In this document: piece by piece, positions 4,858 through 22,823 of the stretch | Numbering within the stretch: position 1 is the first letter of the stretch | Layout: each line of letters opens with the position of its first letter | Assembly (NCBI RefSeq): GCF_008974325.1 | Contig: NZ_BKCG01000001.1 | Span: forward strand, 124,001 to 188,000 | DNA from: Patiriisocius marinus | GTDB lineage: Bacteria; Bacteroidota; Bacteroidia; Flavobacteriales; Flavobacteriaceae | Length of the DNA: 64,000 nucleotides | Direction of reading: 5' to 3' | The notes under the pieces: model-generated | Told to the model about the DNA's origin: nothing | What the model saw: the letters and a program-made list of their open reading frames with translations, nothing else | Database searches by the model: none | Made by a program: the position numbers and the translations under genes

Positions 4858-4879
4858 AAACTAAGGGGGTATTAAATTA

Positions 4880-4909
4880 CAAAAGTAACTGTTGTTTAAT
4901 AACACCCAA
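4880..4909 (-). promoter_or_regulatory. Bacteroidota-type promoter for the TPR kinase/LytTR operon
   Basis: On the minus strand a TTG (4907-4909) is followed after 19 bp by TACTTTTG (4880-4887), matching the TTG-N19-TAnnTTTG consensus. Transcription would begin near 4873, giving a short leader before the ATT start at 4857. Confidence 0.6.
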
Positions 4910-4924
4910 TTTATAACAAATATT

Positions 4925-7000: not shown

Positions 7001-7026
7001 TTGTTGTAATATTATTCTATTGTTGG

Positions 7027-7135
7027 ACGTTTTGAATCACGATCGCAAACTGCGTTTGCTGCACGAAACACGACTTATTAAATTTTTATCGTGGGTCGTG
7101 CAGCTTGCTTTGCCAGAGGTCGTGACTCAAAACGT
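7027..7135. repeat. 109-bp imperfect palindrome next to four-helix-bundle gene
   Basis: The left end acgttttgaatcacga (7027-7042) and right end tcgtgactcaaaacgt (7120-7135) are inverted copies with one mismatch. Inner parts also pair (gctgcacga near 7059 with tcgtgcagc near 7096). It fills most of the spacer between the E1 start codon and the four-helix-bundle gene. A third copy of the end lies on the other side of that gene (7558-7573). It resembles a non-autonomous palindromic element, but no transposase or target duplication was identified. Confidence 0.7.
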
Positions 7136-7148
7136 TTTTTTTTAAATT

Positions 7149-7508
7149 TTAAGCATCTAATGTGCTCATAAAATTAGAAATCTTACTTTGAACTGCCTGA
7201 ACCTTATCTTCAAGAATTTTAAAACGTTCCTCTGAAATAAAGCCTTGCCTTAAACAAATATTTAATTGCGTCTCCCATTCAAAAGCAGAACCCAAGCTAT
7301 CATCTAAATATTTTAAAAAATGCTTGTCTGTCCTTTTACTTGAACCCTCAGAAATATTTGAGGCAATAGAAACTGAACATCTATTCATTTGTGTTCTCAA
7401 CCCGAACCTCTCATAGTCTGGTAAAGTCTTTGTTAAGACATAATTCTCATCAATCAAATCCATCGCTTCCGTCCAAATCCTTAACTTCTTAAAATTATGC
7501 CTTCTCAT
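7149..7508 (-). CDS. Four-helix-bundle protein of the S23/23S-rRNA intervening-sequence family (copy 1)
   Basis: A 119-residue all-helical protein with the family signature: an N-terminal FKKLRIWTEAMDLI helix, then LRTQMNRCSVSIASNISEGS (positions about 38-57), then KHFLKYLDDSLGSAFEWETQL. Members are encoded in intervening sequences of some bacterial 23S rRNAs and as free-standing genes. The Avd accessory protein of diversity-generating retroelements has the same fold. Biochemical function of stand-alone copies is not established. It interrupts the E2-E1 gene pair on the same strand and is bracketed by inverted repeats (7027-7042 and 7558-7573), which suggests acquisition as a small cassette. 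Confidence 0.85.
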   Translation of the reverse strand: MRRHNFKKLRIWTEAMDLIDENYVLTKTLPDYERFGLRTQMNRCSVSIASNISEGSSKRTDKHFLKYLDDSLGSAFEWETQLNICLRQGFISEERFKILEDKVQAVQSKISNFMSTLDA

Positions 7509-7524
7509 TTATTAATCGTTAATT

Positions 7525-7573
7525 GTCGTGTATCGTGTAGTGAGCGTCAGCGAACGGTCGTGAGTCAAAACGT
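7525..7573. repeat. Third copy of the flanking repeat, overlapping the E2 stop codon
   Basis: On the minus strand this reads acgttttgactcacgacc and continues to cacgatacacgaca, similar over about 48 bases to the arms of the palindrome at 7027-7135. The E2 reading frame ends inside it: its last codons ACG TTT TGA are the first nine bases of the repeat. Confidence 0.65.
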
Positions 7574-8854
7574 CCTTTCCACATCAAAATTCTCCATATT
7601 ATCTGCTATTCTCTTTAAGAAAGAACCTGCTAAATACCCATCTACAATTCTATGATCAAATGATAGCGACAAGTACATCATACTTCTAATCTCAATAGTG
7701 TCACCTTCTGGTTTTTCAATTACCTCAGCACGTTTTTTAATAATCCCCGTAGCTAGAATTGCTGCTTCTGGCTGGTTGATTATTGGAGTACCCATCAAGC
7801 TGCCAAAAGTTCCTACATTACTAATGGTAAATGTGCTACCCTTCATATCATCGCCTTTTAGTTTTCCTTCGCGAGATTTACCAACTAACTCATTTGTTGC
7901 AGCTGCCAAACCTTTTAAGTCTTTCTTATCTGCATTTTTTACTACAGGAACAATTAAATTCCCCGAAGGCAAAGCGGTTGCCATCCCTATATTAATATCC
8001 TCTTTTACTATAATATTTTTACCATCTAATGACGAATTTATCATCGGAAAATCTTTGATAGCATTTGCTACAGCTTCAATAAAGAGCGGTGTAAATGTGA
8101 GTCTCTCAGAGTGTTTCTCCTGAAATTTTAATTTATTTGCATTTCGCCAAGTCACCATATCTGTTAGGTCTGCTTCCACATAAGCCGTAACGTGTGGTGA
8201 AGTGTGTTTGCTATACACCATATGGTCTGCAATCATCTCGCGCATACGATCCATCTCAACAATTTTACCTGTTCCTTTATCAAACTTTAAGTCTGGAACT
8301 TGAAAGCCTGATGGCTCAACAACTGGTTGTGCAAACTGAAATGGTCTACCTTCATTTAAATAATTAGTAACATCACTTTTACGTAATCTTCCGTCTTTAC
8401 CTGTTCCAGTAATGCGAGCTAACTCTTCATACGAAATATGATTTTTTCTAGCTACGGCATCTACTAAAGGAGATATAAATAGGTTTTCATTAACCTTATA
8501 AGCTTTAGAACTGGAATTTGAATTCGTTGCTTTTTTAGGTTTCTTTTCAGAAGTAGCTGGGCTTCCTTTATCTGGCATTTTTTCAGCCTGTGACATTTTC
8601 GCGGAAGCTGTATCGCTCAACTCAAGAATAGCGATAACATCACCCACAGGCACCACATCTTTAGCCGAAACTTTATGTGACAACATTGTACCGGAAGATG
8701 GAGCAGGCACTTCATTGTCCACTTTATCTGTTGCTACTTCAACTAAAATATCTCCCTCTTCAAACGTATCGCCCTCCTGAACCAACCAATTAAGGATTGT
8801 TCCTTCTGTGATACTTTCGCCCATTTTAGGCATTCTAAATTCTATTTTTGACAT
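7565..8854 (-). CDS. Dihydrolipoamide acyltransferase (E2) of a 2-oxoacid dehydrogenase complex
   Basis: A 429-residue E2 with one N-terminal lipoyl domain (lipoyl Lys44 in VEVATDKVDNE). A Ser/Lys-rich linker and a peripheral-subunit-binding domain follow (about 127-166, FISPLVDAVARKNHI to LRKSDVTNYL), then the catalytic acyltransferase domain with SFDHRIVDG (catalytic His about 401). It passes the acyl group from E1 to CoA, probably making branched-chain or aryl-acyl CoA. The stop codon lies within a repeat copy (7558-7573), so the last residues VERTF may have been set by that insertion. The gene is close after paaY. Confidence 0.92.
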   Translation of the reverse strand: MSKIEFRMPKMGESITEGTILNWLVQEGDTFEEGDILVEVATDKVDNEVPAPSSGTMLSHKVSAKDVVPVGDVIAILELSDTASAKMSQAEKMPDKGSPATSEKKPKKATNSNSSSKAYKVNENLFISPLVDAVARKNHISYEELARITGTGKDGRLRKSDVTNYLNEGRPFQFAQPVVEPSGFQVPDLKFDKGTGKIVEMDRMREMIADHMVYSKHTSPHVTAYVEADLTDMVTWRNANKLKFQEKHSERLTFTPLFIEAVANAIKDFPMINSSLDGKNIIVKEDINIGMATALPSGNLIVPVVKNADKKDLKGLAAATNELVGKSREGKLKGDDMKGSTFTISNVGTFGSLMGTPIINQPEAAILATGIIKKRAEVIEKPEGDTIEIRSMMYLSLSFDHRIVDGYLAGSFLKRIADNMENFDVERTF

Positions 8855-8860
8855 TTCGTC

Positions 8861-9466
8861 TTATGCTTTATTGTTCGACTTCATCTCTTGAAGCGTTTTA
8901 TAAAAATCTTCTTGTTTTGGTCTATCTGCTGGAACCGCTCTAAGTGGTTCCACTTCTTTTAAACTCTCGTGACAATCTGCTGGTAATTGCTGGTACAACT
9001 TTGTCCCCGCAGTCTTCCAGGCAATCATCGCATCTGAAACTTCTTTAATCGCTTTAGCAGGATTCCCAACTATTAACTGTCTTTTCTCAAACTTGGTTTC
9101 TGCTTTTACAAAAGCCATTGCTCCCACGATACACTCCTCACCTATTTCTGCATCGTCCATAATCACACTGTTCATACCTATGAGGCAATTACGGCCTAAA
9201 TTAGCTCCGTGAATTACCGCGCCGTGACCTACGTGTGCTCCTTCTTTTAAAACAATACTTTTTCCCGGAAACATATGTACAGTACAATTTTCTTGTACGT
9301 TCACTCCGTCTTCAAGTATTATTTCTCCCCAATCACCACGTATTGCAGCGCCAGGACCTATGTAGCAATTCTTGCCAATAATCACGTTACCCGTGACTGC
9401 AGCTAAAGGATGTACAAAGCTAGATTCGTGTACTACTGGTATGTGACCTTTGAAGGAGTATATCAT
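8861..9466 (-). CDS. paaY: PaaY-type hexapeptide-repeat protein (gamma carbonic anhydrase-like)
   Basis: A 201-residue left-handed beta-helix protein with repeated hexapeptide turns (VTGNVIIGKNCYIGPGAAI, VQENCTVHM, GHGAVIHG, IVGAMAFV). Length and placement match PaaY of phenylacetate clusters, reported as a thioesterase that removes dead-end CoA esters. The metal-site histidines of the gamma carbonic anhydrase fold are visible (CTVHM, VGHGAVIHG). It lies between the crotonase gene and the E2 gene on the same strand, 6 bp from E2. The assignment rests on family plus neighbourhood. Confidence 0.85.
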   Translation of the reverse strand: MIYSFKGHIPVVHESSFVHPLAAVTGNVIIGKNCYIGPGAAIRGDWGEIILEDGVNVQENCTVHMFPGKSIVLKEGAHVGHGAVIHGANLGRNCLIGMNSVIMDDAEIGEECIVGAMAFVKAETKFEKRQLIVGNPAKAIKEVSDAMIAWKTAGTKLYQQLPADCHESLKEVEPLRAVPADRPKQEDFYKTLQEMKSNNKA

Positions 9467-9556
9467 ATTAAATATAAAATTTCAAACTAAAAAAATTGAA
9501 AATGTATCAAACTTTAAACTTTTACATTTTTCAGTTTTACATTATGCTGTTTCTTA
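9467..9556. repeat. A/T-rich palindromic intergenic spacer (element A)
   Basis: The 90-bp gap between paaY and the crotonase gene has runs such as aaaaaattgaaaatgt and acttttacatttttcagt that partly pair with each other. Similar words (gaaaaatgtaaaag on the minus strand) occur in the spacers at 16812-16891 and 17675-17758. It may be a dispersed short hairpin element or just convergent A/T-rich sequence. Confidence 0.4.
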
Positions 9557-10309
9557 TTATTTAAATCTTTTAAGAGTTTCTTTTGTAAAATCTGAAAGCA
9601 CAAGTCTTCCTGAAATGACTGCTCTTTCAGCAAGTAATGTATCCCAGTTTTCAGTTCCTGACCACATTATCTTTTTCATTTCTTTCATTGCTTCAGGGTT
9701 ATACGTACAAAGGTTTTCAGCAAAAGCTTGAACAGCTTCGTCTAAAGCTTCTGTAGATTCATGAACACTTGCATACAATCCTTTTTGTCTTGCCCACTCG
9801 GCATCATAAAAAGTATTTGCATCAATAGCAATTTGACTCATCCCAGTTAAACCTAATTTTCTTTCTACTGCTGGCCCAACAACAAAAGGTCCTATCCCAA
9901 TGTTCAATTCACTTAGTTTAATGCTTGCAAATTTGCTAGCCATACAGTAATCTGTTGCACTTGCAACACCTACTCCACCACCTACAGTTTTTCCTTGTAC
10001 GCGACCAATGATGAATTTAGGGCATTTTCGCATTGCGTTAATTACGTTTGCAAATCCGCTAAAGAAAATACGTCCTGTTTCTGCATCGTCAATACTTATT
10101 AATTCTTTAAAACTTGCTCCTGCACAGAAAGTACGCTCACCTCCACTTTTTAATATAATTACTTTTACAGCATCGTTCTCTCCAGCTGCTGTAATAGTTT
10201 GTCGTAATTTTTCAAGAATATCGCCTGGCAAACTGTTATGTGCTGGGTGAAAAAATTCTATGGTTGAGATACCGTTTTCTATATGTTCTTTTACGTATGG
10301 TGCTGTCAT
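9557..10309 (-). CDS. Crotonase-family enoyl-CoA hydratase/isomerase of the phenylacetate block
   Basis: A 250-residue crotonase-fold protein with the CoA/oxyanion elements FCAGASFKEL (about 62-71) and VQGKTVGGGVGVASATDYC (about 104-122), plus an acidic site in LSELNIGIGP. The first catalytic Glu usual in hydratases (GGGCELA) is replaced here (GGGVGVA), leaving one clear acid, so it may act as an isomerase or a divergent hydratase. In a paa operon its expected place is PaaF, hydration of 2,3-dehydroadipyl-CoA. It is divergent enough that I leave the symbol blank. Confidence 0.8.
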   Translation of the reverse strand: MTAPYVKEHIENGISTIEFFHPAHNSLPGDILEKLRQTITAAGENDAVKVIILKSGGERTFCAGASFKELISIDDAETGRIFFSGFANVINAMRKCPKFIIGRVQGKTVGGGVGVASATDYCMASKFASIKLSELNIGIGPFVVGPAVERKLGLTGMSQIAIDANTFYDAEWARQKGLYASVHESTEALDEAVQAFAENLCTYNPEAMKEMKKIMWSGTENWDTLLAERAVISGRLVLSDFTKETLKRFK

Positions 10310-10347
10310 CGTTTTAATTGTAAATACTTATTATTTAATCGTTCTTT

Positions 10348-10950
10348 TTAAAAGAAATCTTTTATTCCTGTTAATATACTTTGTACTGCGTATGATGCTA
10401 AAATTAATCCCATCACTTTACTTATTACAGTTATACCATATGATCCTATTTTTTCTTGAATTGAACTTGCTGCTAATAACATAAGTGATGTTAGTACTAT
10501 TACTATTAACACTAAACCTGTAGTCAACATTTGTTGCTCTATGCTATAAATATGATTATCTGTAAGCAGCACAACAGCCATTATTGCTCCTGGCGAAGCA
10601 ATTGACGGTATTGCAACTGGAAATATTGTGACGTGTTTATAATCGGTTATTACATTTTTTTCGGTTTCAGGTTTTCCGTCACCAAATATCATAGTCAATG
10701 CAAATAGAAACAGAATAACACCTCCAGATATTTGAAATGCATCTAATGACACATCCATTCCTTCGAGAATTAATTGTCCAATTATTATAAAAAACAACAG
10801 AATTAAAAACGCAATAAAAGATGCTCTAATAGCTACTTTCTTTTTATGTTTTTTATCTAATTCTTTTGTTGCTTCTAGATAAACAGGTACAGTACCTATT
10901 GGATCAATTACTGCAAAAAGAAAAAATATTGAAGTGAGTATTTCAGTCAT
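10348..10950 (-). CDS. MarC-family integral membrane protein
   Basis: A 200-residue protein with about six hydrophobic helices and the MarC family start (IFFLFAVIDPIGTVPVYLE) and middle (AIPSIASPGAIMAVVLL). MarC proteins are inner-membrane proteins once linked to antibiotic resistance; their transport role is not established. It sits in the same direction within the phenylacetate gene run, between paaZ and the crotonase, which is not a usual component. It could be a passenger gene, or it could move a pathway compound; sequence alone does not say. Confidence 0.88.
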   Translation of the reverse strand: MTEILTSIFFLFAVIDPIGTVPVYLEATKELDKKHKKKVAIRASFIAFLILLFFIIIGQLILEGMDVSLDAFQISGGVILFLFALTMIFGDGKPETEKNVITDYKHVTIFPVAIPSIASPGAIMAVVLLTDNHIYSIEQQMLTTGLVLIVIVLTSLMLLAASSIQEKIGSYGITVISKVMGLILASYAVQSILTGIKDFF

Positions 10951-10974
10951 TTAATCTATAGTTATTAAATCTAT

Positions 10975-13515
10975 TTATATTAAATTGAATTGTTCAAAAT
11001 GATGATTTAAATGTTTTCGTTCTAATAAATAAGACTCGTATTTATTTAATTCACCAAACACTAAATTCTTTAAAACAGCATCTGGATTTTCCTTAAAAAA
11101 TGCTAAATATTTAAAACGTTGTTCTAAAAATTTATCTTTTGCTGTTTGCAAATCTTCGTGAACTAAAGGTGCCAACGTATCTTTTTCTAATGTTGGAAAT
11201 TTAGAATTCTGCGGAAATTTTTCAAAGTTATAAAGGCTATCGTGGACAACATCCAAATACTTTTCTGGTGTTGCAATATCAAAATCTTGAATTTCTCCCG
11301 AAGCAATTTTGTAGGTGTATTCTAAATGCTCTAACATATGCTGTGGAGTCATAATTCCCCATAGCGGTTTGCTGTCTTCTGAAAGTTTATGGAGACACGA
11401 CTGGATCGTTTCATTAGTCATTTCGGTAAAAACCTCTTGTTTTTTCTCTACCATTGTCAAAATGGTTGCAATACAAACTAATGGATCTTCCTTTTCTGCT
11501 CCTTCTGGCAAAATAGCATTGGCGTTGTCTACATTTTTATCAAATATTTCAACATACCATTTTACTATTCCGCTTGGGTGTTCTTGCCCTCTACTATCTC
11601 TGTCTACTTTTTGCTTACACGTTAAACGCACGTATAATGTATCACCATCATAAATAGGGCGCAAAAATCTGATTTCTTCTAAACCATAATTAGCCGCTAC
11701 AGGCCCTTTATTTGGGTATACAAATAATCCTGCTGCCATAGATATGATAAAATATCCATGAGCAGTTCGTTTTTCAAAAATACTTCCGTCAAGACTTGTT
11801 GTATCTGTGTGAGCATAAAAATGATCCCACGTAATATTTCCGAAGTTTACAATATCTGTGTCTGTAATAGTACGATTATGCGTTTTAAGAGACATACCCG
11901 GTTGGATATCCTCCCAATGATATTTAAAAGGATGTTGCGATGCTTCTTTATAAGCTGCTTTAGGCTGGTAAATACCCGTAACCTCTGTCAATGTGGTTGG
12001 ACTTCCTTGAATGGCACAACGTTGTAAGTAATGCTTAATACCACGCATTCCACCCATTTCTTCTCCTCCACCTGCACGTCCTGGACCACCGTGAATTAAT
12101 CCTGGTAATGGACTACCATGCCCTGTACTTTGCTTTGCAGATTCTCTATTTAATATTAAAATACGACCGTGATGCGTTGCTGCATTTACGGCATATTCTT
12201 TTGCGATTTTATCATCATTTGTAACAATAGAACTCACTAATGAACCTTTACCCATCTTAGCTAATGTGATTGCATCTTCAAGTGTGTCATACGGCATTAT
12301 TGTACTTACAGGACCAAAAGCTTCGGTAATGTGAGCTGCTTCATTTTGTAAGGGATTATCTTCTCGCAATAACACAGGCTTCATAAATGCTCCTTTTTGA
12401 GCATCTGCACCAATAGCTTCAAAGTCATTAGAATTTCCGTAGACAATTTCTGCACTTTCTGAAATTTTAGCAACTTGTTCCCTTACACTATTTCTTTGAG
12501 CATCACTCACCAATGAACCCATACGCACTTCGCGCAATCTTGGATCACCAATGGTCACTTTATCAAGTTGTTTTATCAATGCATTTTGCACATCTCCAAC
12601 CAAATTTTGAGGAACAACAATACGACGTATTGCCGTACATTTTTGACCACATTTTGTTGTCATTTCATTACGAACTTCTTTTACAAATAAGTCAAATTCG
12701 GGTGTTCCTGGCACTGCATCTTTTCCTAGAATCGCCGCATTTAAACTATCAGCTTCCATTGTAAATGGCACCGACTCTGCAGTCAATTGTGGATGATTTT
12801 TAAGAATACGACCTATTTTAGCAGATCCAGTAAAGGTTACTACATCTTGAGATTCTACTGTATCTAATATATTTTTTGCTGTTCCTGAAATAAGTTGCAA
12901 AGATCCTTCGGGTAAAATACCCGAAGCAATGATTTCTCTTACTACGGCCTCCGTCAAATATGCTGTTTGTGGCGCTGGCAATACAACTGCTGGCATTCCT
13001 GCCATCCAGTTTACTGCGCATTTTTCTAACATTCCCCAAACAGGGAAGTTAAATGCATTAATATGCACAGCAACTCCTTCACGAGGCACCATAATATGAT
13101 GCGCCATAAAACGACCCCCGCGAGATAAATCTATAGGATCTCCTTCTACGTGATACGTCTGATTAGGAAATAATTTACGTAAAGATGCATTGGCAAAAAG
13201 ATTACCAAACCCCCCTTCAATATCAACCCAACTATCACGTTTTGTCGCACCTGTGCGGTAACTAATTTCGTAAAAAGCTTGCTTTCTTTTTTCAAGATAT
13301 AGCGCTAGGCTTTTTAGCATGTTACCACGTTGTTGAAATGTCATTTTACGAAGTGTTGCTCCTTGGTCACGCCCATATTGCAAAATAGACGGAACATCTA
13401 ATCCCTCTACTGTTGTACTTGTAAAATGTTCTCCGGTGATAGAATCAAAAACAGGAATTCCTTCACCGTTTCCAGATTGCCATTGCCCTTGTATGTAATG
13501 TTGTGTTTTATTCAT
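10975..13515 (-). CDS. paaZ: PaaZ oxepin-CoA hydrolase/semialdehyde dehydrogenase with extra C-terminal DUF1569-like domain
   Basis: An 846-residue fusion. Residues about 1-520 are an aldehyde dehydrogenase (FTGSAKIGRIL, acid FTMEADSLNAAIL, Cys in TTKCGQKCTAIRR). About 530-685 is a MaoC-like hydratase (NITWDHFYAHTD, RTAHGYFIISMAAGLF). Together these open the oxepin-CoA ring and oxidise the resulting aldehyde. E. coli PaaZ is about 680 residues. The additional 155 residues here, ending FGELNKYESYLLERKHLNHHFEQFNLI in effect, resemble DUF1569/DinB-like helical bundles (His-rich end, KHLNHHFEQF). The role of that extension is unknown. It is transcribed after paaJ, with a 9-bp gap. Confidence 0.93.
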   Translation of the reverse strand: MNKTQHYIQGQWQSGNGEGIPVFDSITGEHFTSTTVEGLDVPSILQYGRDQGATLRKMTFQQRGNMLKSLALYLEKRKQAFYEISYRTGATKRDSWVDIEGGFGNLFANASLRKLFPNQTYHVEGDPIDLSRGGRFMAHHIMVPREGVAVHINAFNFPVWGMLEKCAVNWMAGMPAVVLPAPQTAYLTEAVVREIIASGILPEGSLQLISGTAKNILDTVESQDVVTFTGSAKIGRILKNHPQLTAESVPFTMEADSLNAAILGKDAVPGTPEFDLFVKEVRNEMTTKCGQKCTAIRRIVVPQNLVGDVQNALIKQLDKVTIGDPRLREVRMGSLVSDAQRNSVREQVAKISESAEIVYGNSNDFEAIGADAQKGAFMKPVLLREDNPLQNEAAHITEAFGPVSTIMPYDTLEDAITLAKMGKGSLVSSIVTNDDKIAKEYAVNAATHHGRILILNRESAKQSTGHGSPLPGLIHGGPGRAGGGEEMGGMRGIKHYLQRCAIQGSPTTLTEVTGIYQPKAAYKEASQHPFKYHWEDIQPGMSLKTHNRTITDTDIVNFGNITWDHFYAHTDTTSLDGSIFEKRTAHGYFIISMAAGLFVYPNKGPVAANYGLEEIRFLRPIYDGDTLYVRLTCKQKVDRDSRGQEHPSGIVKWYVEIFDKNVDNANAILPEGAEKEDPLVCIATILTMVEKKQEVFTEMTNETIQSCLHKLSEDSKPLWGIMTPQHMLEHLEYTYKIASGEIQDFDIATPEKYLDVVHDSLYNFEKFPQNSKFPTLEKDTLAPLVHEDLQTAKDKFLEQRFKYLAFFKENPDAVLKNLVFGELNKYESYLLERKHLNHHFEQFNLI

Positions 13516-13524
13516 TATAAAGAA

Positions 13525-14736
13525 TTATAAATTCACATTTTCAATAATAGCAGCATATCCTTGCCCTACACCTATACACATAGTAATAAGTGCATATCTT
13601 TTATTTGTTTCTTGTAATTGTAATGCCGCTGAATAAGCTATTCTTGCACCAGTAACACCTAGTGGGTGTCCTATTGCAATAGAACCTCCATTAGGGTTTA
13701 TTCTTGCATCATTATCAGCTAAGCCCCATTCTCTAATACATGCTAAAGCTTGCGAAGCAAATGCCTCATTAAGCTCAATTACATCCATATCTTCCATTTT
13801 CAAACCAGCCTTTGCTAACGCTTTATTTGATGCGTTGACAGGACCAATTCCCATAATTCTTGGCTCCACTCCAACCACGGCAGAACTAACTATTCTAGCC
13901 ATTGGTTTTAGGTTATATTTTTTTACCGCAGCTTCACTAGCTATAATAGTAGCTGCTGCTCCATCATTTAATCCAGAGGCATTACCAGCAGTAACACTAC
14001 CATCTTCTTTTTTAAATGCTGGTCGTAATTTTGCCAATATTTCTTTTGAAGAATTTGGTTTTATAAACTCATCATCTTTAAAGATAATTGGGTCTTTTTT
14101 TCGCTGCGGAATTTCAACAGCAACAATTTCTTTTGCTAATCGACCAGACTTTTGAGCCGCGGTAGCTTTCATCTGGCTGTTATAAGCAAATGCATCTTGA
14201 TCTTCTCTTGAAATATTATATTTCTCAACCAAGTTTTCTGCCGTCGTTCCCATACCATCGACACCATATAACTCTTGCATTTTTGGGTTTACAAAACGCC
14301 ATCCAAATGTAGAATCGTACATTTTACTATCACCACCAAAAGCTGTTGAAGGTTTTGCCATCACGTATGGCCCACGTGTCATATTCTCAACACCACCAGC
14401 AATAAATAAGTCACCGTCTCCAGCTTTTATTGCTCTGTTAGCATGAATAATTGCAGACAAACCACTACTACATAATCTGTTTACTGTTTCGCCAGGAACC
14501 GAAAAAGGCAATCCTGCAAGAAGTAAACTCATACGAGCAACATTACGGTTATCTTCACCTGCTTGATTTGCACAGCCCATAATCACATCTTCATACGCAT
14601 CTAATGGAATGTTCGGGTTTTTATCAGTTACCGCTTTTATAACAAGTGCACCTAAATCATCTGTTCTCACAGCGCTAAGTGTTCCTTTATAGTTTCCTAT
14701 TGGAGTTCTTACTCCGTCAATTATATATGCTTCCAT
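13525..14736 (-). CDS. paaJ: 3-oxoadipyl-CoA/3-oxo-5,6-dehydrosuberyl-CoA thiolase
   Basis: A 403-residue thiolase of full length. Nucleophile Cys89 lies in NRLCSSGLSAI, the His loop in IAIGHPLGVTGARI, and the second Cys in MCIGVGQGYA near the C-terminus. It cleaves the beta-ketoacyl-CoA intermediates at the end of the phenylacetate pathway to release acetyl-CoA and succinyl-CoA. It is located between paaI and paaZ in the same operon direction, which supports PaaJ/PcaF over a generic acetyl-CoA acetyltransferase. Confidence 0.92.
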   Translation of the reverse strand: MEAYIIDGVRTPIGNYKGTLSAVRTDDLGALVIKAVTDKNPNIPLDAYEDVIMGCANQAGEDNRNVARMSLLLAGLPFSVPGETVNRLCSSGLSAIIHANRAIKAGDGDLFIAGGVENMTRGPYVMAKPSTAFGGDSKMYDSTFGWRFVNPKMQELYGVDGMGTTAENLVEKYNISREDQDAFAYNSQMKATAAQKSGRLAKEIVAVEIPQRKKDPIIFKDDEFIKPNSSKEILAKLRPAFKKEDGSVTAGNASGLNDGAAATIIASEAAVKKYNLKPMARIVSSAVVGVEPRIMGIGPVNASNKALAKAGLKMEDMDVIELNEAFASQALACIREWGLADNDARINPNGGSIAIGHPLGVTGARIAYSAALQLQETNKRYALITMCIGVGQGYAAIIENVNL

Positions 14737-14741
14737 TTTAT

Positions 14742-14774
14742 GAAATTGAAATCGAAATTGAAATCGAAAACGAA
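14742..14774 (+). repeat. GAAATY hexamer tract upstream of paaJ
   Basis: Five consecutive hexamers GAAATT GAAATC GAAATT and GAAATC GAAAAC followed by GAA, in the spacer between paaJ and paaI. The same unit recurs at 19105-19134 and, inverted, at 19508-19537, on either side of a four-helix-bundle gene. Confidence 0.8.
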
Positions 14775-14805
14775 TGCTTCGAAAACAAATTTCTAATTAT
14801 TTTTT

Positions 14806-15240
14806 TTATTCTTCCCAGTCTTTATTCGTTCTATACACGACTCCTTTAAAGAGCGCTACTAACTCATCATCGCGTTTAACTTCTACGATATTAAAACCTA
14901 CTTTATTCTTTTGTACATCTAATGTTGCTTCAGCGGTAATATAATCTCCTTCATTTAAAGCCTCAATATGATTGATGCTTGTTTCAATAGATACAGCATA
15001 TTTTCCGTGGGTATTTGCTGTAAATCCAAAAGCAGTATCTGCAAGCGAATAACTAATACCACCGTGTGCTTTATCCATACTATTTAGCATTTCTTTACGA
15101 ATGGTCATGCCTACTTTTACGTGCCCAACTTTACATTCTAGTATTTCAATTCCTAACCAAGTTGAGTAAGCATCTTGAGCTAGCATTTTATGTGGTATTC
15201 TTTCTCCTGCGAGAGGTACTAGGGATTTGGTATTAGACAT
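14806..15240 (-). CDS. paaI: PaaI hotdog-fold acyl-CoA thioesterase
   Basis: A 144-residue hotdog thioesterase with the PaaI signature HGGISYSLADTAFGFTANTHG (about 60-80) and an N-terminal AYSTWLGIEILE strand. PaaI hydrolyses phenylacetyl-CoA-type esters that stall the pathway and so frees CoA. Its ATG overlaps the stop of the upstream four-helix-bundle gene in a TAATG arrangement, so the two are translationally coupled. Confidence 0.92.
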   Translation of the reverse strand: MSNTKSLVPLAGERIPHKMLAQDAYSTWLGIEILECKVGHVKVGMTIRKEMLNSMDKAHGGISYSLADTAFGFTANTHGKYAVSIETSINHIEALNEGDYITAEATLDVQKNKVGFNIVEVKRDDELVALFKGVVYRTNKDWEE

Positions 15241-15620
15241 TAGTTTTTATTTATTCTTTTAGTAATTGTACTTCTTAAAGAAGATAGCATCTTAGTAATT
15301 TCAGAAACCATTCTCCTGTTTTCTTCGTCCATTTCAAAATCGATATAAGATCTTCTTCTCGATTTAGTACTACAACTTACATATTCATTTGCACTATGAA
15401 TTGCGTGATTAATGTGTTTCACAAATTGCGCATCAGAACCTGAATATCCTTCTGCGATATGAAGTGCTATAGAATCTGAGGCTCTTCTAAACTGTGATGA
15501 AAGCGCATATAACTCGTAGTTTGAGAAAATTTTTACTTGCTCGTTTACAACCTCTCCATAATCCAAGGCCTTTTGGTAAACATTCAAATCTTCAAACTTA
15601 AAATGGTATTTACTTTTCAT
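15240..15620 (-). CDS. Four-helix-bundle protein of the S23/IVP family (copy 2)
   Basis: A 126-residue all-helical protein with the family pattern: FEDLNVYQKALDYGEVV at the N-terminus and LSSQFRRASDSIALHIAEGY (about 40-59), followed by a charged C-terminal helix. Sequence identity to the other two copies in this window is low beyond the motif, so it is not a recent local duplicate. It is coupled to paaI by TAATG. No clear inverted repeats flank it. The upstream gap (15621-15644) has a loose heptamer run, taatcccaaatgcctaattc. Function unknown. Confidence 0.8.
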   Translation of the reverse strand: MKSKYHFKFEDLNVYQKALDYGEVVNEQVKIFSNYELYALSSQFRRASDSIALHIAEGYSGSDAQFVKHINHAIHSANEYVSCSTKSRRRSYIDFEMDEENRRMVSEITKMLSSLRSTITKRINKN

Positions 15621-15644
15621 ATTATTTTTTCTAATCCCAAATGC

Positions 15645-16811
15645 CTAATTCCTAAAAAACATTTTATCCTCTCTATTCATTCTCCTCAATAATGGAGAAC
15701 AACGATATCTATCTTCGCTATATTCCTCATACAACGCGTCTAGCGCATGCACACAATTATTAATACCAAACTCATCTGCCCAAGCCAATAATCCTTTTGG
15801 ATAATTAACACCTTTAGTCATTGCATTATCAATATCTTGAGCACTAGCAATATTTAAAAATAAAGCATCTGCAGCTTCATTGATCAACATCACCACTATT
15901 CTATTCTTTATACTTTCTAACAGGTTTTGATCTTTAGATGGTTCTGGCCTAACAGTTCCTTCTGAGTAATCATAAAAACCTCTTCCAGTTTTTCTACCTA
16001 AATATCCTGCTTCTGCAAAACGTTTTTGAGTAAATGCTGGCTTATAACGCGGGTCATAATAAAATGCTGTAAAAACAGTTTCAGTAACAGTATAATTCAC
16101 ATCGTTACCTATAAAATCCATTAATTCAAAAGGTCCCATTTTAAAACCCCCAACAGATTTCATTGCAAAATCAATGGTTACAAAATCGGCTATTCCTTCT
16201 TCATAAATACGGAGTGCTTCACCATAAAATGGGCGTGCAACTCTATTTACAATAAAACCTGGAGTATCCTTTGCTACTGCAACTACTTTTTTCCAACTCT
16301 TAATTGTTTCTTCTGAAATTTTAAGCACTTCACCACTTGTCTGAATTGCAGGAATAACTTCAACAAGTTTCATCAATGGCGCAGGATTAAAAAAGTGAAT
16401 TCCCACACAGCGTTCAGGATTTTGTAATGACGATGCTATTGAAGCAATTGACAAAGAAGAAGTATTTGATGCAATTATACAGGCGTCAGAAACATAACTT
16501 TCTAACTCTTGAAAAACCTTCTTTTTAATATCAAGATTCTCAACAATAGCCTCTATAGTCAAATCACTATCTGCTAGCTCTTTTAAAGAATTAACGTAAC
16601 TAATATTACGTTGAATACGCATTTTTTCTTCTGATTCAATACGACCCTTTTCAACTAAGCGTGTCATTATTTTCTCTAAAGAAGCTTTTGCTTTATCTAA
16701 AGCTGCCTGATTAAGATCAAATAATTTTACAACACAACCTGCTGTAGCTGCAACTTGCGCAATTCCAGAACCCATTGTTCCTGCTCCTATTATTCCTATT
16801 TTTTTAATCAT
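15645..16811 (-). CDS. paaH: 3-hydroxyacyl-CoA dehydrogenase (3-hydroxyadipyl-CoA dehydrogenase)
   Basis: A 388-residue NAD-dependent dehydrogenase. The Rossmann motif GIIGAGTMGSGIAQVAATAG opens the protein, catalytic His and Asn regions are in GIHFFNPAPLMKLVEVI, and two C-terminal helical 3HCDH domains follow (VGGFKMGPFELMDFIG and GVNYPKGLLAWADE). It oxidises 3-hydroxyadipyl-CoA to 3-oxoadipyl-CoA. It is shorter than E. coli PaaH (about 475 residues). Its position between paaG and paaI supports the pathway role. Confidence 0.92.
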   Translation of the reverse strand: MIKKIGIIGAGTMGSGIAQVAATAGCVVKLFDLNQAALDKAKASLEKIMTRLVEKGRIESEEKMRIQRNISYVNSLKELADSDLTIEAIVENLDIKKKVFQELESYVSDACIIASNTSSLSIASIASSLQNPERCVGIHFFNPAPLMKLVEVIPAIQTSGEVLKISEETIKSWKKVVAVAKDTPGFIVNRVARPFYGEALRIYEEGIADFVTIDFAMKSVGGFKMGPFELMDFIGNDVNYTVTETVFTAFYYDPRYKPAFTQKRFAEAGYLGRKTGRGFYDYSEGTVRPEPSKDQNLLESIKNRIVVMLINEAADALFLNIASAQDIDNAMTKGVNYPKGLLAWADEFGINNCVHALDALYEEYSEDRYRCSPLLRRMNREDKMFFRN

Positions 16812-16891
16812 AAATGAAAAATGTAAAATTTAAAACTCAAAAGTATATTTCACTTTTACATTTTAAATTTTTCGGTTTGATATTTTAAATT
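16812..16891. repeat. A/T-rich palindromic intergenic spacer (element B)
   Basis: The 80-bp gap holds aaatgtaaaatttaaaa on the left and ttttacattttaaattt on the right, which are inverted copies and would form a long hairpin. Related words lie in the spacers at 9467-9556 and 17675-17758. Confidence 0.55.
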
Positions 16892-17674
16892 TTACTTCCC
16901 TTTAAATACGGGTTTTCTTTTTTCTACAAACGCGGCTACACCTTCTGCATAATCTTCTGTAGAAGCTGATTCAATTTGTAACTTACTTTCTAATTTCAAT
17001 TGCTCTTCAAGATTGTTATTCATTGATTGATTAAGCAATCTTTTTGTTAAGCCCAATGCCTTTGTTGGCATATTAGCTAATGTCAATGCTTTTAAATTAA
17101 CTTCTTCCATTAAAGTTTCCGAAGCAACCACACTATAAATCATACCCATCTGCTCTGCTTTTTCTGCGGAAATTTTATCTCCTAACATCATTATTGCAGA
17201 TGCTTTTCCGAAGCCTATTAATCGAGGTAAAAAGAATGTCCCAGCACTATCTGGCACTAAGCCAATTTTACTAAAAGCCTGTATAAAACTTGCTCTATCA
17301 CTTGCAATTACTACATCACAAGCTAATGCTATATTTGCTCCAGCACCTGCTGCAACACCATTAACACCACAAACTATTGGTTTTTCAATAGCTCTAATTC
17401 TGTTAATGATAGGGTTATAATGATCGTCAAGTATTTTTTTAAATCCTGGGTTTAAATCTGGATTTGTAATCTCACCAATATCTTGTCCCGCACAAAAAGC
17501 TTTTCCGTTTCCGGTTAAGATAATAGCTCTTACGGCATCATCTTTTTCACAAGCATCAAGTTCATCTTGAAGCAAAAAAGCCATCTCTCTATTAAAGCTA
17601 TTAAAAACCTCTGGACGGTTAAGAGTTAAAGTTGCAACTCCGTTTTTTATTTCTTTCGTTATTGATTGATCCAT
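16892..17674 (-). CDS. paaG: Ring 1,2-epoxyphenylacetyl-CoA isomerase
   Basis: A 260-residue crotonase-fold protein with GKAFCAGQDIGEI (about 54-66), NGVAAGAGANIALACDVVIA and the acidic loop KIGLVPDSAGTFFLP. The C-terminus AFVEKRKPVFKGK is typical of PaaG. It isomerises ring-1,2-epoxyphenylacetyl-CoA to oxepin-CoA, the step after the PaaABCDE epoxidase, whose genes lie directly upstream. Confidence 0.92.
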   Translation of the reverse strand: MDQSITKEIKNGVATLTLNRPEVFNSFNREMAFLLQDELDACEKDDAVRAIILTGNGKAFCAGQDIGEITNPDLNPGFKKILDDHYNPIINRIRAIEKPIVCGVNGVAAGAGANIALACDVVIASDRASFIQAFSKIGLVPDSAGTFFLPRLIGFGKASAIMMLGDKISAEKAEQMGMIYSVVASETLMEEVNLKALTLANMPTKALGLTKRLLNQSMNNNLEEQLKLESKLQIESASTEDYAEGVAAFVEKRKPVFKGK

Positions 17675-17758
17675 AGTATTATTTTAAAACTGAAAAATTC
17701 TAGGTGCAAAAACTAAGGTTAATTTTTACGCCTAAAATTTACATTTTTAGGTTATTAT
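17675..17758. repeat. A/T-rich palindromic intergenic spacer (element C)
   Basis: The gap between paaD and paaG contains tttttacgcctaaaatttacatttttaggttatt, partly self-complementary with aaaactgaaaaattctaggtgcaaaaac on its left. Word use resembles the spacers at 9467 and 16812. Confidence 0.35.
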
Positions 17759-18262
17759 TTATTTCAAACATTTAAAGTAATCAAATGGCTCTTGGCAATC
17801 ATCACATTTAAATAATGCTTTACATGCGGTAGATCCAAATTGACTCACTAAATGCGTATTTGTACTTTTACATTGCGGGCAAATTACCTTTTTAGCATTT
17901 CCCAACAACACCTCTTTGTCTGCTGTTTCTGATAGTGGTCTTGCGATACCATATTCTTCCATCTTTAGCAATCCAGCTTCACTTATCCAGTCTGTACTCC
18001 AAGCTGGACTTAAAATTAACTCCACCTCAACTAATTTCCCCAAAGGCTTAAAAGCAGCTTTTAAATCATCACCAATTACGTCCATTGCTGGACAACCACT
18101 ATAGGTTGGGGTTAACTTTACTTTAATGACTCCATCTACCTCAATCGCCTCTCTAATAACTCCCAGATCTAACACTGATAACACGGGAATTTCCGGATCA
18201 CTTACTTGTTCCAAAATTGGAATTAAGTGTTGGTCGATATTTACGGTTTGAGTTACTGCCAT
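17759..18262 (-). CDS. paaD: Phenylacetyl-CoA epoxidase maturation subunit PaaD
   Basis: A 167-residue protein: an N-terminal DUF59/MIP18 domain (about 10-95, EQVSDPEIPVLSVLDLGVIR, YSGCPAMDVI) and a C-terminal zinc-ribbon-like segment with CPQCKSTNTH and FKCDDCQEPFDYFKC. PaaD is required for an active epoxidase and is thought to help metal centre assembly. Gene order PaaA, B, C, D, E of the classic operon is retained except that paaE is first. Confidence 0.93.
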   Translation of the reverse strand: MAVTQTVNIDQHLIPILEQVSDPEIPVLSVLDLGVIREAIEVDGVIKVKLTPTYSGCPAMDVIGDDLKAAFKPLGKLVEVELILSPAWSTDWISEAGLLKMEEYGIARPLSETADKEVLLGNAKKVICPQCKSTNTHLVSQFGSTACKALFKCDDCQEPFDYFKCLK

Positions 18263-18288
18263 TACAATTTATGTAGTTTCATTTAACT

Positions 18289-18309
18289 TCTCGATTGCGC
18301 TCGATGAGA
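18289..18309. repeat. Short palindrome in the paaC-paaD spacer
   Basis: The sequence tctcgattgcgctcgatgaga is an imperfect inverted repeat (TCTCGA with TCGATGAGA). It resembles GC-richer palindromic words often seen between genes in flavobacterial genomes. The rest of the 81-bp spacer shows nothing else. Confidence 0.45.
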
Positions 18310-18343
18310 CAAACAAAAGTTCATCAGTTTCGGTTTCACAGGA

Positions 18344-19099
18344 TTACCATTCCATGTTAGGATAAGTACGTTGCATATATTGCAAATCACTTAATATATA
18401 CCCCATATGCTCGCTGTGAATTCCTTTTTTACCACCTCTTGTAAAGTATTTACCTTCTGGAACAGTTAGATTTGCTTCTTTTAATAATTCTGAAATTTCA
18501 GCGTAATAAAGCTCCTTAAGTTTTGAAGTGTCAACACCTATACCATCAGCGATCATTGCTTTATCTGCTTCGGTTAGATCAAAAAGCTCATCTGTGTATA
18601 CCCACAAATCATCAATTGCTTCTTGCATTTTAGCATTACTTTCTTCTGTACCGTCACCTAATCTTTTTACCCAGTCGCCTGAAAAACGCTTGTGGTAGCT
18701 TACTTCTTTAATTCCTTTTTTTGCAATTGCAGCGAGTGTTTCGTCTTTACTATTTAGCATTTCTGTCATAAATAATAGGTGAAACACATCAAATAAATAT
18801 TGACGCCCCATGACAAAACCAAAATGATCATTTGGCTGTTCTACTAATAACACATTTTTATATTCGCGTTCTAACCTTAGAAAAGCAAGATCGTCTTCTG
18901 TCTTTCCTTCACCTTGAATTTTCGCTGCGTATTGATAGTAATTTCTTGTCTGACCAATTAAATCTAATGAAATATTGGTACCTGCTATATCTGTTTCAAG
19001 CGTTGGACCGTGGCCACACAGTTCACCTAAGCGTTGCGCTAGGATAAGACTGTTGTCTGCTATTGATATTATATAATTGTATAGATTGTTATTTTTCAT
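18344..19099 (-). CDS. paaC: Phenylacetyl-CoA epoxidase subunit PaaC
   Basis: A 251-residue helical ferritin-like protein matching PaaC: YNYIISIADNSLILAQRLGELCGHGP at the N-terminus, QPNDHFGFVMGRQYLFDVFH, and KEVSYHKRFSGDWVKRLGDGTEES. PaaC is the structural partner of the catalytic subunit PaaA and does not carry the working di-iron site. A four-helix-bundle gene is inserted between it and paaB. Confidence 0.93.
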   Translation of the reverse strand: MKNNNLYNYIISIADNSLILAQRLGELCGHGPTLETDIAGTNISLDLIGQTRNYYQYAAKIQGEGKTEDDLAFLRLEREYKNVLLVEQPNDHFGFVMGRQYLFDVFHLLFMTEMLNSKDETLAAIAKKGIKEVSYHKRFSGDWVKRLGDGTEESNAKMQEAIDDLWVYTDELFDLTEADKAMIADGIGVDTSKLKELYYAEISELLKEANLTVPEGKYFTRGGKKGIHSEHMGYILSDLQYMQRTYPNMEW

Positions 19100-19104
19100 T
19101 TTTT

Positions 19105-19134
19105 TGAAAACGAAATCGAAAATGAAATCGAAAT
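19105..19134 (+). repeat. GAAATC hexamer tract, left flank of four-helix-bundle copy 3
   Basis: Units GAAAAC GAAATC GAAAAT and GAAATC GAAATC lie between the paaC start codon and the stop of the four-helix-bundle gene. It is inverted relative to the tract at 19508-19537 on the other side of that gene. Confidence 0.8.
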
Positions 19135-19150
19135 CGAAGGTTTTAGTTAT

Positions 19151-19495
19151 TTAACTGTATTTCTTAATAAGTGTCACAACAATTCTTATTAACTCATCAT
19201 TCTCTTTTAGTATCCCAACAGCATTATCTTTTTTTAAGATATTAGCTTTAATTTGGATATTTAAGTTTCTTAAAGACTCACGTAATTCCTTCAGTGTAAT
19301 TCTTAATTTATTGGCTCTATCTTTATCAGTACCAGCTCCTGCAAATTCGCCAAAATTTAAAGCTGACGAACAAGCAGATCTTATTAATTGTTTAGCTAAA
19401 TAATCTGCTGAGAATGATTTTGGTTGTTTATCAAACAACACAATAACCGAAGCTGCAAAATCTTCAAATCTTCCATCTAAATCATATTTCTTCAT
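19151..19495 (-). CDS. Four-helix-bundle protein of the S23/IVP family (copy 3)
   Basis: A 114-residue all-helical protein: GRFEDFAASVIVLFDK, then AKQLIRSACSSALNFGEFAG (about 34-53), then KLRITLKELRESLRNLNIQI. It is the divergent subgroup of the family in which the usual NIxEG is NFGEFAG. It separates paaB from paaC, two subunits of one complex that are normally adjacent. Inverted hexamer tracts flank it (19105-19134 and 19508-19537). Function unknown. The placement suggests insertion of a small cassette without loss of operon polarity. Confidence 0.8.
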   Translation of the reverse strand: MKKYDLDGRFEDFAASVIVLFDKQPKSFSADYLAKQLIRSACSSALNFGEFAGAGTDKDRANKLRITLKELRESLRNLNIQIKANILKKDNAVGILKENDELIRIVVTLIKKYS

Positions 19496-19507
19496 AAGCT
19501 ATACTTC

Positions 19508-19537
19508 ATTTTCGATTTCAGTTTCAGTTTCGATTTC
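19508..19537 (-). repeat. GAAATC hexamer tract, right flank of four-helix-bundle copy 3
   Basis: On the minus strand the units are GAAATC GAAACT GAAACT and GAAATC GAAAAT, five in a row, in inverted orientation to the tract at 19105-19134. Confidence 0.8.
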
Positions 19538-19551
19538 AAGGCGAAGCCACG

Positions 19552-19836
19552 TTACATATGTTTTACCTCGTCTGGTAAATCATAGAAAGTAGGATGACGA
19601 TACACCTTATCTTGTGCTGGTTCAAATAACTCGCCATTATGTTCTGGGTTACTTGCTGTAATATTACTACTTTCAACTACCCAAATACTTACTCCTTCAC
19701 TTCTTCTAGTATATACATCTCTTGCATTTTCTAGAGCCATCTCCGCATCTGATGCGTGTAAGCTCCCAAAATGACGATGCTCTAATCCGTTTTTACTTCT
19801 TACGAAGATTTCCCATAAGGGCCAATTCTTACTCAT
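19552..19836 (-). CDS. paaB: Phenylacetyl-CoA epoxidase subunit PaaB
   Basis: A 94-residue protein matching PaaB in length and pattern: WPLWEIFVRSKNGLEHRHFGSLHA, MALENARDVYTRRSEGVSIWVV and a terminal FYDLPDEVKHM. It is the small bridging subunit of the PaaABCE monooxygenase complex. It is 84 bp from paaA; that gap carries repeated words (ttgagttgttagtattgag with taataactcaag) that partly pair. Confidence 0.94.
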   Translation of the reverse strand: MSKNWPLWEIFVRSKNGLEHRHFGSLHASDAEMALENARDVYTRRSEGVSIWVVESSNITASNPEHNGELFEPAQDKVYRHPTFYDLPDEVKHM

Positions 19837-19920
19837 AATTTTAAAGTATTGAGATGTGAGTTGTTAGTATTGAGTTTAAGAATATTTTCTAATAACTCAA
19901 GATTGAAAACTCCCTACTAT

Positions 19921-20877
19921 TTATATCGCTTCTTTTAATTTTCTTGCTTCTTTTTTATCTGCATACGCCATTGCTGCATCACGAACCCACTCTCCGTTTT
20001 CCCAAGCATTCACTCTGTCTTTCATTCTTTTTTTGTTACAAGGACCGTGACCTTTTACAACTTGCCAGAACTCATCCCAGTTAATTTCTCCAAAATCATA
20101 AACACCTTTCTCTTCGTTCCATTTTAAATCTGGATCTGGTATTGTTAAACCAAGAAGTTCTGCTTGAGGTACTGTTTGATCTATAAATTGCTGACGAAGA
20201 TCATCGTTAGATTTTCTTTTTAGCTTCCATTTCATAGATTGCTCCGTATGTATACTTTCTGCATCTGTTGGCCCCAACATCATTAGACTTGGCCACCACC
20301 ATCTATTTAATGCATCTTGCGCCATGTCCTTTTGCTCTTGAGACCCATTACAGAGTTTTAACATAATTTCAAAACCTTGTCTTTGATGGAAACTTTCTTC
20401 TTTACAAACACGAACCATTGCTCTTGCATAAGGACCAAATGAAGTATTACAAAGTGGCACTTGATTAATGATGGCTGCTCCATCAACTAACCAACCTATT
20501 GCTCCCATATCTGCCCAAGTGACTGTTGGGTAATTAAAAATTGAAGAGTACTTTGCCTTTCCTGAATGCAACTGCTCATATAACTCATCACGAGAAACCC
20601 CTAAGGTTTCACAAGCTGAATACAAATACAACCCATGCCCAGCTTCATCTTGAACCTTTGCTAATAATGCAGCTTTTCGTCTTAAAGAAGGAGCTCTAGT
20701 AATCCAGTTTCCTTCCGGTAACATTCCTACAATTTCACTATGTGCGTGTTGCGACATCTGCCTAATATGTGTTTTACGATACTTCTCTGGCATCCAATCT
20801 TTAGGCTCAATTTTTTCGTCTCGCGCTATGCGTGCCTCAAAAATTTCTTCTAAATTTTTAATTTGTTCGTTGCTCAT
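19921..20877 (-). CDS. paaA: Phenylacetyl-CoA epoxidase catalytic subunit PaaA
   Basis: A 318-residue ferritin-like di-iron protein. Visible iron-ligand motifs are [15 protein letters not shown] and [16 protein letters not shown], with [19 protein letters not shown] before them. PaaA uses oxygen to epoxidise the ring of phenylacetyl-CoA, taking electrons from PaaE. The neighbours paaB, paaC, paaD and paaE confirm the complex. Confidence 0.95.
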
Positions 20878-20928
20878 AATTATATATTTAAAAACTCATA
20901 AACTTTAAGTGAATCTATTTACTATAAA

Positions 20929-22002: not shown

Positions 22003-22026
22003 TAGTATTTATTAGTTTTATTATCA

Positions 22027-22058: not shown

Positions 22059-22128
22059 TCATTAATTAATGCTTATAATTCTGTTTAAATAGATGGATTT
22101 TTTATGTTAAAATCAGCTTTTAAATAAG

Positions 22129-22695: not shown

Positions 22696-22823
22696 ATAAT
22701 GTAAAGATAAATTTTGAAATCGAATTAATGCCCAAATTGAAATTGAATTTTAAGCTTCGTAAGTAGGTTGTTAATTAAAGGTGAAAACTTCTTTCTACAA
22801 ACAACTATCGGCAATCATTTTGC

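Follow-up and report, generated by a model that had tools for sequence, protein, structure and literature searches.

IVP Genes as Candidate Junction-Specific Cassettes in the Phenylacetate Operon of Patiriisocius marinus and Its Relatives

Introduction

How did genes for small S23-like proteins come to lie between the genes of a catabolic operon, and are they residents or visitors there? The question is raised by a window of 64 000 nucleotides, the whole stretch of DNA analysed here (contig NZ_BKCG01000001.1, positions 124001–188000; Patiriisocius marinus, GCF_008974325.1; 3.56-Mb genome, labelled G000). Its phenylacetate (paa) operon holds three genes for PF05635 (S23/IVP) proteins, referred to as IVP1, IVP2 and IVP3; genomes of relatives are labelled G and their loci L, and "A>B" denotes the junction between two consecutive genes. 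In the original prediction, the three genes were taken for small mobile cassettes that insert without breaking operons.

With moderate confidence, the IVP genes are best explained as junction-specific cassettes that pass through a cycle of gain, decay and loss, the protein probably recognising the arms of its own cassette. Sequence comparison shows the same junctions occupied in many genera, absence from many others and decay in place; it also shows that the history of the cassette at some junctions is apparently independent of that of the flanking genes.

Results

IVP genes of the window: The copies predicted at 7149, 15240 and 19151 were confirmed as exact open reading frames (ORFs) on the minus strand, in the direction of the operon. 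They separate the E2/E1-like, PaaH-like/PaaI-like and PaaB/PaaC genes, of which the first and the last pair had been noted as usual neighbours. The predicted S23-like fold was borne out by scores above the cut-offs of PF05635 (109.1, 76.5 and 39.1 bits for IVP1, IVP2 and IVP3; cut-off 33.8), their sole Pfam domain, and of TIGR02436, "four helix bundle protein" (102.1, 73 and 62.4 bits; cut-off 24). A profile search of the whole genome found only these three PF05635 matches, all within the paa operon and none in 23S rRNA. Pairwise identities of 22, 27 and 28 % bear out the proposal that they are not recent local duplicates, and local duplication was ruled out as the source of the three copies. 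PaaZ, 3-oxoadipyl-CoA thiolase, PaaD, PaaC and PaaB of the operon were named by NCBIfam above cut-off; PaaI, PaaH, E1 and E2 score under the equivalog cut-offs and are hence called PaaI-like and so on. Other genes are presumably paaA, paaE, paaG, marC and gCA, names given on reading the sequence.

A profile built from 30 IVPs matches the solved structures 2gsc (E 4.1e-34) and 2rld (E 2e-27), which have five chains each; solved relatives of the S23/IVP family are described as homopentamers in the available text of PMC4990558. IVP1 is distantly related to Avd (E 1.3e-4 and E 5e-5 in two comparisons; 22.3 bits against the Avd cut-off of 80). Nucleic-acid binding by the IVP is plausible from this kinship and from the link between protein clade and repeat unit described below. 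No transposase domain was recognised in the window IVPs by Pfam search, no homing endonuclease domain by Pfam or NCBIfam, and no convincing PADLOC match that would point to a defence role (best Cmr5, E 0.006). The G000 genome gave 0 matches each to reverse transcriptase PF00078 (RVT_1) and Y1 transposase PF01797 (Y1_Tnp); Y1_Tnp likewise gave 0 in the IVP-rich genomes G059, G074, G104 and G034, and the IVP-rich G074, G034, G035 and G094 have neither. Being absent from G000, a reverse transcriptase (present in 28/100 relatives) and a Y1 (RAYT-type) transposase (in 39/100 relatives) were both ruled out as requirements in trans.

Arms and orientation: Inverted repeats surround IVP3 (36 nt, 83 %) and IVP1 (21 nt, 90 %), the two copies for which they had been predicted; IVP2 is bracketed too (15653–15630 inverted against 15237–15214, the latter within the paaI start), so that the number has to be raised to all three. 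Degenerate tandem 6–7-mers make up the arms of IVP3 and, in relatives, those of most cassettes. The rules were examined in two samples: 113 IVP ORFs at 104 loci drawn from the genus and the family (110 with full flanks), and 80 named loci obtained by scanning species genomes with a small IVP alignment (alignment A1 being too diverse). The named loci are nearly all from Bacteroidota, and a few metagenome-assembled genomes (Bifidobacterium, Limnohabitans, Methanophagales) look mislabelled; at least one locus (L097/L225, identical IVP) is common to both samples, and neighbouring genes were defined from ORF length without gene-finding software. PF05635 is present in 76/100 genomes of the family.

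The IVP gene runs in the same direction as both neighbours in 103/110 loci, opposed to the upstream neighbour only in five and to the downstream one only in one, with one unresolved. In the named set the figure is 69/80, or 70/80 after correction of L295, which was first called antisense and whose Pfam-supported neighbours lie on the sense strand; the other ten have one neighbour opposed or uncalled. Broken copies are sense with both neighbours at 12/14 loci, two being unresolved or having one neighbour opposed. Genes of an operon are co-directional anyway; the telling point is that the supposed insertions are never antisense, no IVP among the 110 and 80 loci and no broken copy being antisense to both neighbours.

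Median gap lengths are 55 nt upstream and 43 nt downstream of the IVP (110 loci). Autocorrelation within these gaps is raised at lag 7 (0.455/0.448 against 0.306 after shuffling) and otherwise only at 14 and 21; the named loci gave 0.44/0.467 at lag 7. Taken cassette by cassette, periodicity of 7 nt reaches p≤0.05 in 80/110 and 64/80. G exceeds C in 95/110 upstream gaps (13 reverse) and C exceeds G in 78 downstream gaps (15 reverse). By a lenient score (≥24), inverted arms were found at 76/108 loci against 277/4000 mismatched pairs, and in the named set at 62/80 against 319/3000. By a stricter score, 61/110 lie above the 95th and 20/110 above the 99th percentile of mismatched pairs, a control inflated by repeat words that recur from cassette to cassette. 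Arm arrays of 29–39 nt (about five units) make up 27/58 downstream and only 18/76 upstream. Arm similarity rises once IVPs are more than 50 % identical, and at some sites the arm provides the stop or start codon of the neighbouring gene.

Filled and empty sites in the genus: PF05635 occurs in 5/11 genomes of the genus and PaaC in 11/11, and the operon stretches of ten relatives were mapped. At E2>E1 an IVP is present in G000, G001 and G009 and absent from G002; at PaaH>PaaI it is present in G000 and G001 and absent from G009, G002, G005 and G006; PaaB>PaaC is filled in G000 and G005 (73 % identical) and IVP-free in G001, G009, G002 and G006; paaG2>hbd is filled, among the mapped operons of the genus, in G009 only. 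At site A (ECH-domain protein > thiolase), the IVPs of G001 and G009 are only 45 % identical and have different arms; G000 and G002 have solo repeat hairpins there, G005 has another palindrome, and in G006 and G010 the gap is short and plain. Site B is filled in G001, G009 and G005 and IVP-free in G000, G002, G006 and G007. The comparison of the operon in relatives that had been suggested at the outset thus found junctions filled in some and empty in others; uniform filling in all relatives, named then as the outcome that would speak against mobility, was not observed, since IVP-free junctions occur within the genus and relics in a few spacers.

G000 and G001 (L032) do not differ in cassette 1 and its arms (7001–7564; 100 % identity), with E1 at 94.4 % and E2 at 91.8 %. 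The other paa genes of the two genomes are mosaic as well (PaaC 99.6 %), so that this identity is no decisive sign of a recent exchange. In several paa spacers of L032 and L035, a different palindromic repeat (CCTTGAGCGCAGTCGAAAGG and relatives) stands where other species carry IVP cassettes.

paa operons of the family: IVP3-type proteins were found in 25/199 family genomes, with paa neighbours at 24/30 fetched loci; two non-paa loci (G064, G145) share another operon, lying within it or next to it, and in G064 this operon carries VWA and BatD proteins. The mapped paa operons comprise 18 fetched for IVP3-type copies and 20 in which IVP3 had not been found; 17 of the latter have no IVP and three have one. 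All IVP calls in paa operons are sense (52/52; 48 left after four overlapping calls were dropped). In the 36 genomes whose operons were examined, out of 45 family genomes bearing PaaC, 38 IVPs compare with 163 PF05635 matches genome-wide; about a quarter of the matches thus lies in roughly half a per cent of the genome.

Filled and IVP-free junctions number 11 and 32 at paaB>paaC, 11 and 31 at paaG2>hbd, 9 and 33 at hbd>paaI, 6 and 33 at paaG1>gCA, and 5 and 27 at E2>E1; 11 of the 32 IVP-free paaB>paaC junctions are only 2–15 nt long. On an operon tree of 47 rows, partly chosen for IVP3, presence at the five junctions requires 11, 9, 8, 6 and 4 changes, as many as with shuffled labels (10.1, 10.05, 8.6, 5.8 and 4.8), and is thus unclustered. 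Identity of the IVP and identity of the operon correlate at E2>E1 (see the Discussion); rho at the other paa junctions is 0.28 (p 0.16), 0.49 (p 0.054), −0.10 and 0.18. The nearest group of IVP3 is formed with G034 and G035, which belong to other genera, G005 of its own genus standing apart.

In a weakly resolved tree of 229 IVPs (119 columns), the non-paa rows require five changes against 48.1 after shuffling. The IVPs of E2>E1, including that of Psychroflexus, form one side of a branch with support 94. GAANNN runs of at least four units occur in 12/13 copies at paaB>paaC and paaA>paaB and in 1/26 other copies; GATTNNN runs of at least four units occur in 9/11 copies at paaG2>hbd and in 0/26 others, both units having been picked after inspection of the data. 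IVP clades are thus tied to particular junctions and repeat units and not scattered, which had not been foreseen in the original prediction.

A tblastn search found IVP fragments in 4/309 IVP-free spacers (G019, G066 twice and, weakly, G095), and by eye G045 and G031 keep one arm at paaB>paaC. In five IVP pairs dN/dS is 0.08, 0.25, 0.14, 0.08 and 0.03, with synonymous sites near saturation in four; the values indicate purifying selection on these pairs.

Junctions beyond the paa operon: In a survey of 179 IVPs, homologous neighbours on both sides were found for 139/162 pairs with at least 70 % IVP identity, 471/6118 at 40–50 % and 0/1620 below 30 %. The 179 loci fall into 80 junction clusters (40, 26, 7, 7, 4, 4, 3, 3, 3 and smaller; 60 single), their proportions being biased because the loci were drawn mostly from the best-scoring matches. 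The two largest clusters (66/179) are thiolase>FadE and ECH-domain protein > thiolase, the ECH-domain protein being one that we take to be FadJ-like. Further junctions are PanB>, the halves of a split MetH, small>large subunit of methylmalonyl-CoA mutase, >SufB and E2>E1.

At FadJ-like>thiolase (β-oxidation, 40 loci), rho between the IVP and its flanks is 0.03 and 0.04 against 0.80 between the flanks, and IVPs just 36 % identical lie between flanks about 90 % identical. The split MetH junction (seven loci) behaves likewise (0.04 and 0.01; flank–flank 0.76). One locus of this seven-locus cluster, L063, has its IVP between ORFs (449–1456 and 1833–3314) that match MetH parts 4–332 and 337 onwards; either MetH was split exactly at the cassette site or the cassette may use an older split.

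Solo repeats: The pattern GAAANN×4+GAA has three exact places in G000, none of them outside the paa operon (both IVP3 arms and 14742–14774), and solo GAANNN arrays at PaaI>thiolase also occur in G001, G074, G035 and G031. GATTNNN×3+GATT has 18 places in G009, four of them in the paa operon, and none in G000, G001 or G002; its backwards control also matches (4 in G009, 6 in G002, 11 in G005), as would be expected of other heptamer families. G009 has at least seven solo hairpins without an IVP, akin to the arms of two G001 cassettes. Solo heptamer arrays were found in 9/170 random spacers of IVP-bearing genomes, 2/150 of IVP-free genomes and 3/43 in the window, by a statistic that differs from the per-cassette test (80/110) and whose rates are not directly comparable; their confinement to IVP genomes is suggestive only. 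In paa operons, solo GATTNNN accompanies a GATTNNN-armed IVP (4/9 against 2/33 others, p 0.013), and the corresponding figures for GAANNN are 4/12 against 5/30 (p 0.41), so that the idea of operon-specific repeats holds for GATTNNN and fails for GAANNN.

In the 427-nt paaE>paaA spacer of L338 (G019), GCATCGCATGCGGATATCACAGAC-like units are repeated in a long tandem array. In L177–L184, arms related to those of IVP cassettes hold a smaller inner hairpin (ATTCGCTTTGCTCATTG and variants), which makes the solo elements composite. A 7-periodic stretch was also seen in an intergenic spacer of the window outside the paa operon (44572–44879). The coordinates of the window features are collected in Table 1.

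Table 1. IVP genes, cassette arms and IVP-free repeats of the paa operon (positions within the window).
Feature	Position	Strand	Remarks
IVP1	7149..7508	-	PF05635 four-helix-bundle protein, 119 aa; E2>E1 junction
Cassette 1, 5′ arm region	7509..7575	-	GGACGTTTTGACTCACGACC ... CACGATACACGAC; outer end overlaps last codons and stop of E2
Cassette 1, 3′ arm region	7025..7148	-	palindromic in itself; ends TCAAAACGTCC
IVP2	15240..15620	-	PF05635 protein, 126 aa; PaaH-like/PaaI-like junction; stop overlaps PaaI start (TAATG)
Cassette 2, 5′ arm	15630..15653	-	holds stop codon of PaaH-like gene
Cassette 2, 3′ arm	15214..15237	-	first codons of paaI; N-terminal extension absent in G002, G009 and G006
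IVP3	19151..19495	-	divergent PF05635 protein, 114 aa; PaaB>PaaC junction
Cassette 3, 5′ arm	19504..19539	-	tandem hexamers GAAANN
Cassette 3, 3′ arm	19104..19139	-	GAAANN array, inverted
Solo GAAANN arm	14741..14774	-	PaaI>thiolase junction, without IVP
Heptamer-periodic palindromic spacer	16812..16891	-	without IVP; paaG2>hbd, junction IVP-filled in G009
Heptamer-periodic spacer	9467..9556	-	without IVP

Discussion

A cassette in the sense proposed here would consist of a 5′ arm, usually of tandem 6–7-mers, the IVP ORF and an inverted 3′ arm, and would lodge sense-wise in a stop–start junction of an operon, where hardly any space is left for a separate promoter. The pentameric IVP may bind the repeat units of its own arms, either as inverted DNA sites or as a transcript stem; such binding is suggested because arm type goes with protein clade and the inversion of the arms shows no RNA-pairing bias. 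Cassettes could pass from a junction in one species to the homologous junction in another, perhaps because the conserved genes on either side allow recombination, with occasional copying to another junction of the same operon. Recombination through the flanks would, as a conjecture, account for the specificity for junctions and, where sites are homologous, for the sense orientation, and not for the first arrival elsewhere. More tentatively, the cassettes might be junction-homing elements that work without a transposase, reverse transcriptase or known nuclease, with clades each specific for certain junctions of certain metabolic operons and a pentameric protein that reads the arm units; one unit per subunit is conceivable because the commonest downstream array is about five units long.

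Several observations weigh against the proposed cycle. No cassette was seen to move, and target-site duplications could not be defined, filled and empty sites having been compared by eye and their ends being too diverged. At thiolase>FadE (26 loci) the IVPs partly follow their flanks (rho 0.50 and 0.53; flank–flank 0.87), as they do at PanB> (seven loci; 0.01 and 0.53; flank–flank 0.44), and at E2>E1 (five loci) they largely follow the operon (0.92, p 0.016); judged from these identities, tracking at the three junctions is behaviour expected of old residents. IVP history appears separate from that of the host genes at FadJ-like>thiolase, at MetH and in presence at the paa junctions, partly so at thiolase>FadE and not at E2>E1. 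IVP2 and IVP3 are among the 30/110 cassettes without significant 7-nt periodicity, IVP3 being 6-periodic. Restriction of GAAANN×4+GAA to the paa operon fails in G001, where one of eight places is in a paa spacer. G088, a relative from outside the genus, has an IVP3-type copy on either side of paaB; the two are identical over the 83 aa compared and differ in N-termini and arms, so that arms can change apart from the gene. Finally, mismatches between arms show no excess of G–U (66 G–U against 86 A–C; share 0.43, 0.48 predicted from composition, p 0.33), which leaves an RNA stem maintained by selection unsupported.

Tracking of the flanks is what would be expected if the IVPs were long-standing operon genes, i.e. 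a vertically inherited small subunit or regulator lost many times, with nothing mobile. Junction-specific clades across genera, purifying selection and relics that attest losses agree with such genes, as do the E2>E1 copies and, in part, those of thiolase>FadE. They are nevertheless an unlikely explanation overall: IVPs at FadJ-like>thiolase are untied to flanks that correlate at 0.80 (36 % identity between flanks of about 90 %), one site holds IVPs of 45 % identity with different arms in G001 and G009, and IVP3 groups with proteins of other genera and not with its genus-mate.

Slightly less probable again is a module acting in RNA by analogy with the intervening sequences (IVSs) of 23S rRNA, whose arms would pair in the polycistronic mRNA, be cut by RNase III and segment the message like 23S rRNA. 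The protein family is that of the 23S IVS ORFs, the cassettes sit inside presumed transcripts, and the predicted folds are closed by a long arm stem (z −3.54, −4.71 and −2.18). Such z-scores say little, because any inverted repeat folds well; the mismatches without G–U preference argue against a paired RNA, and positions 4500–23000 of the window gave no Rfam match at the gathering threshold. That repeat hairpins are independent dispersed elements whose loops IVP genes enter, much as IVSs replace hairpin loops of rRNA, is improbable: solo hairpins of the same units do occur without an IVP, and site A holds a solo hairpin in two species of the genus and an IVP in two others, but the protein clade is linked to the repeat unit across genera, arm similarity increases above 50 % IVP identity, and the 11/32 IVP-free paaB>paaC junctions of 2–15 nt cannot hold a hairpin.

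Junction-specific cassettes in a cycle of gain, decay and loss remain the explanation adopted. The predicted small mobile cassettes that spare operons are partly supported: the class is borne out by empty sites, relics, differing IVPs at one site and the lack of copies antisense to both neighbours, and vertical residence fits equally well at some junctions.

Among known systems, REPIN/RAYT elements combine dispersed hairpins with gene-bearing forms. The cassettes are similar in this, yet G000 has no Y1_Tnp match. Avd of diversity-generating retroelements is a distant relative of IVP1, yet G000 has no RVT_1 match. With classical transposons or insertion sequences, the cassettes share terminal inverted repeats and not a recognised transposase domain. 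In the available text of PMC4990558, the 23S rRNA IVS is a segment that holds an S23/IVP ORF and is bordered by complementary sequences, sporadic in occurrence and termed a selfish element. Protein family, complementary borders and sporadic presence are thus common to both; unlike the IVS as described there, the cassettes lie at protein-coding operon junctions, their arms are mostly tandem 6–7-mers, one operon may hold several of them, and they keep to particular junctions.

Heptamer repeats have been reported elsewhere. The P6b stem of the Nostoc trnL intron consists, in the available text of PMC4476775, of heptamers (TDNGATT or NNTGAGT), one class of which repeatedly replaced the other; these are likewise degenerate 7-nt repeats able to pair, but lie inside a group I intron, and no protein gene is mentioned in that text. 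TAACTGA arrays of some Bacteroidetes (PMC4679880, main text) are intergenic tandem heptamers like the cassette arms, often just before start codons or within operons, and unlike them repeat a single unit in direct orientation; that main text contains none of the terms "S23", "four helix" and "intervening". In the open-access library searched, no description of IVP cassettes at operon junctions was found, subscription literature being outside the search, and the open-access literature searched gave no role for PF05635 outside rRNA intervening sequences.

The PF05635 genes follow strict rules: they lie in operons, in sense, between inverted arms and at recurring junctions, with protein clade linked to repeat unit. 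These rules make the function of the IVP directly testable as binding of its own repeats. The heptamer repeats of bacteria, so far a puzzle, may have a protein partner in the IVP, and the cassettes may show how spread into operons of essential pathways can occur without a transposase.

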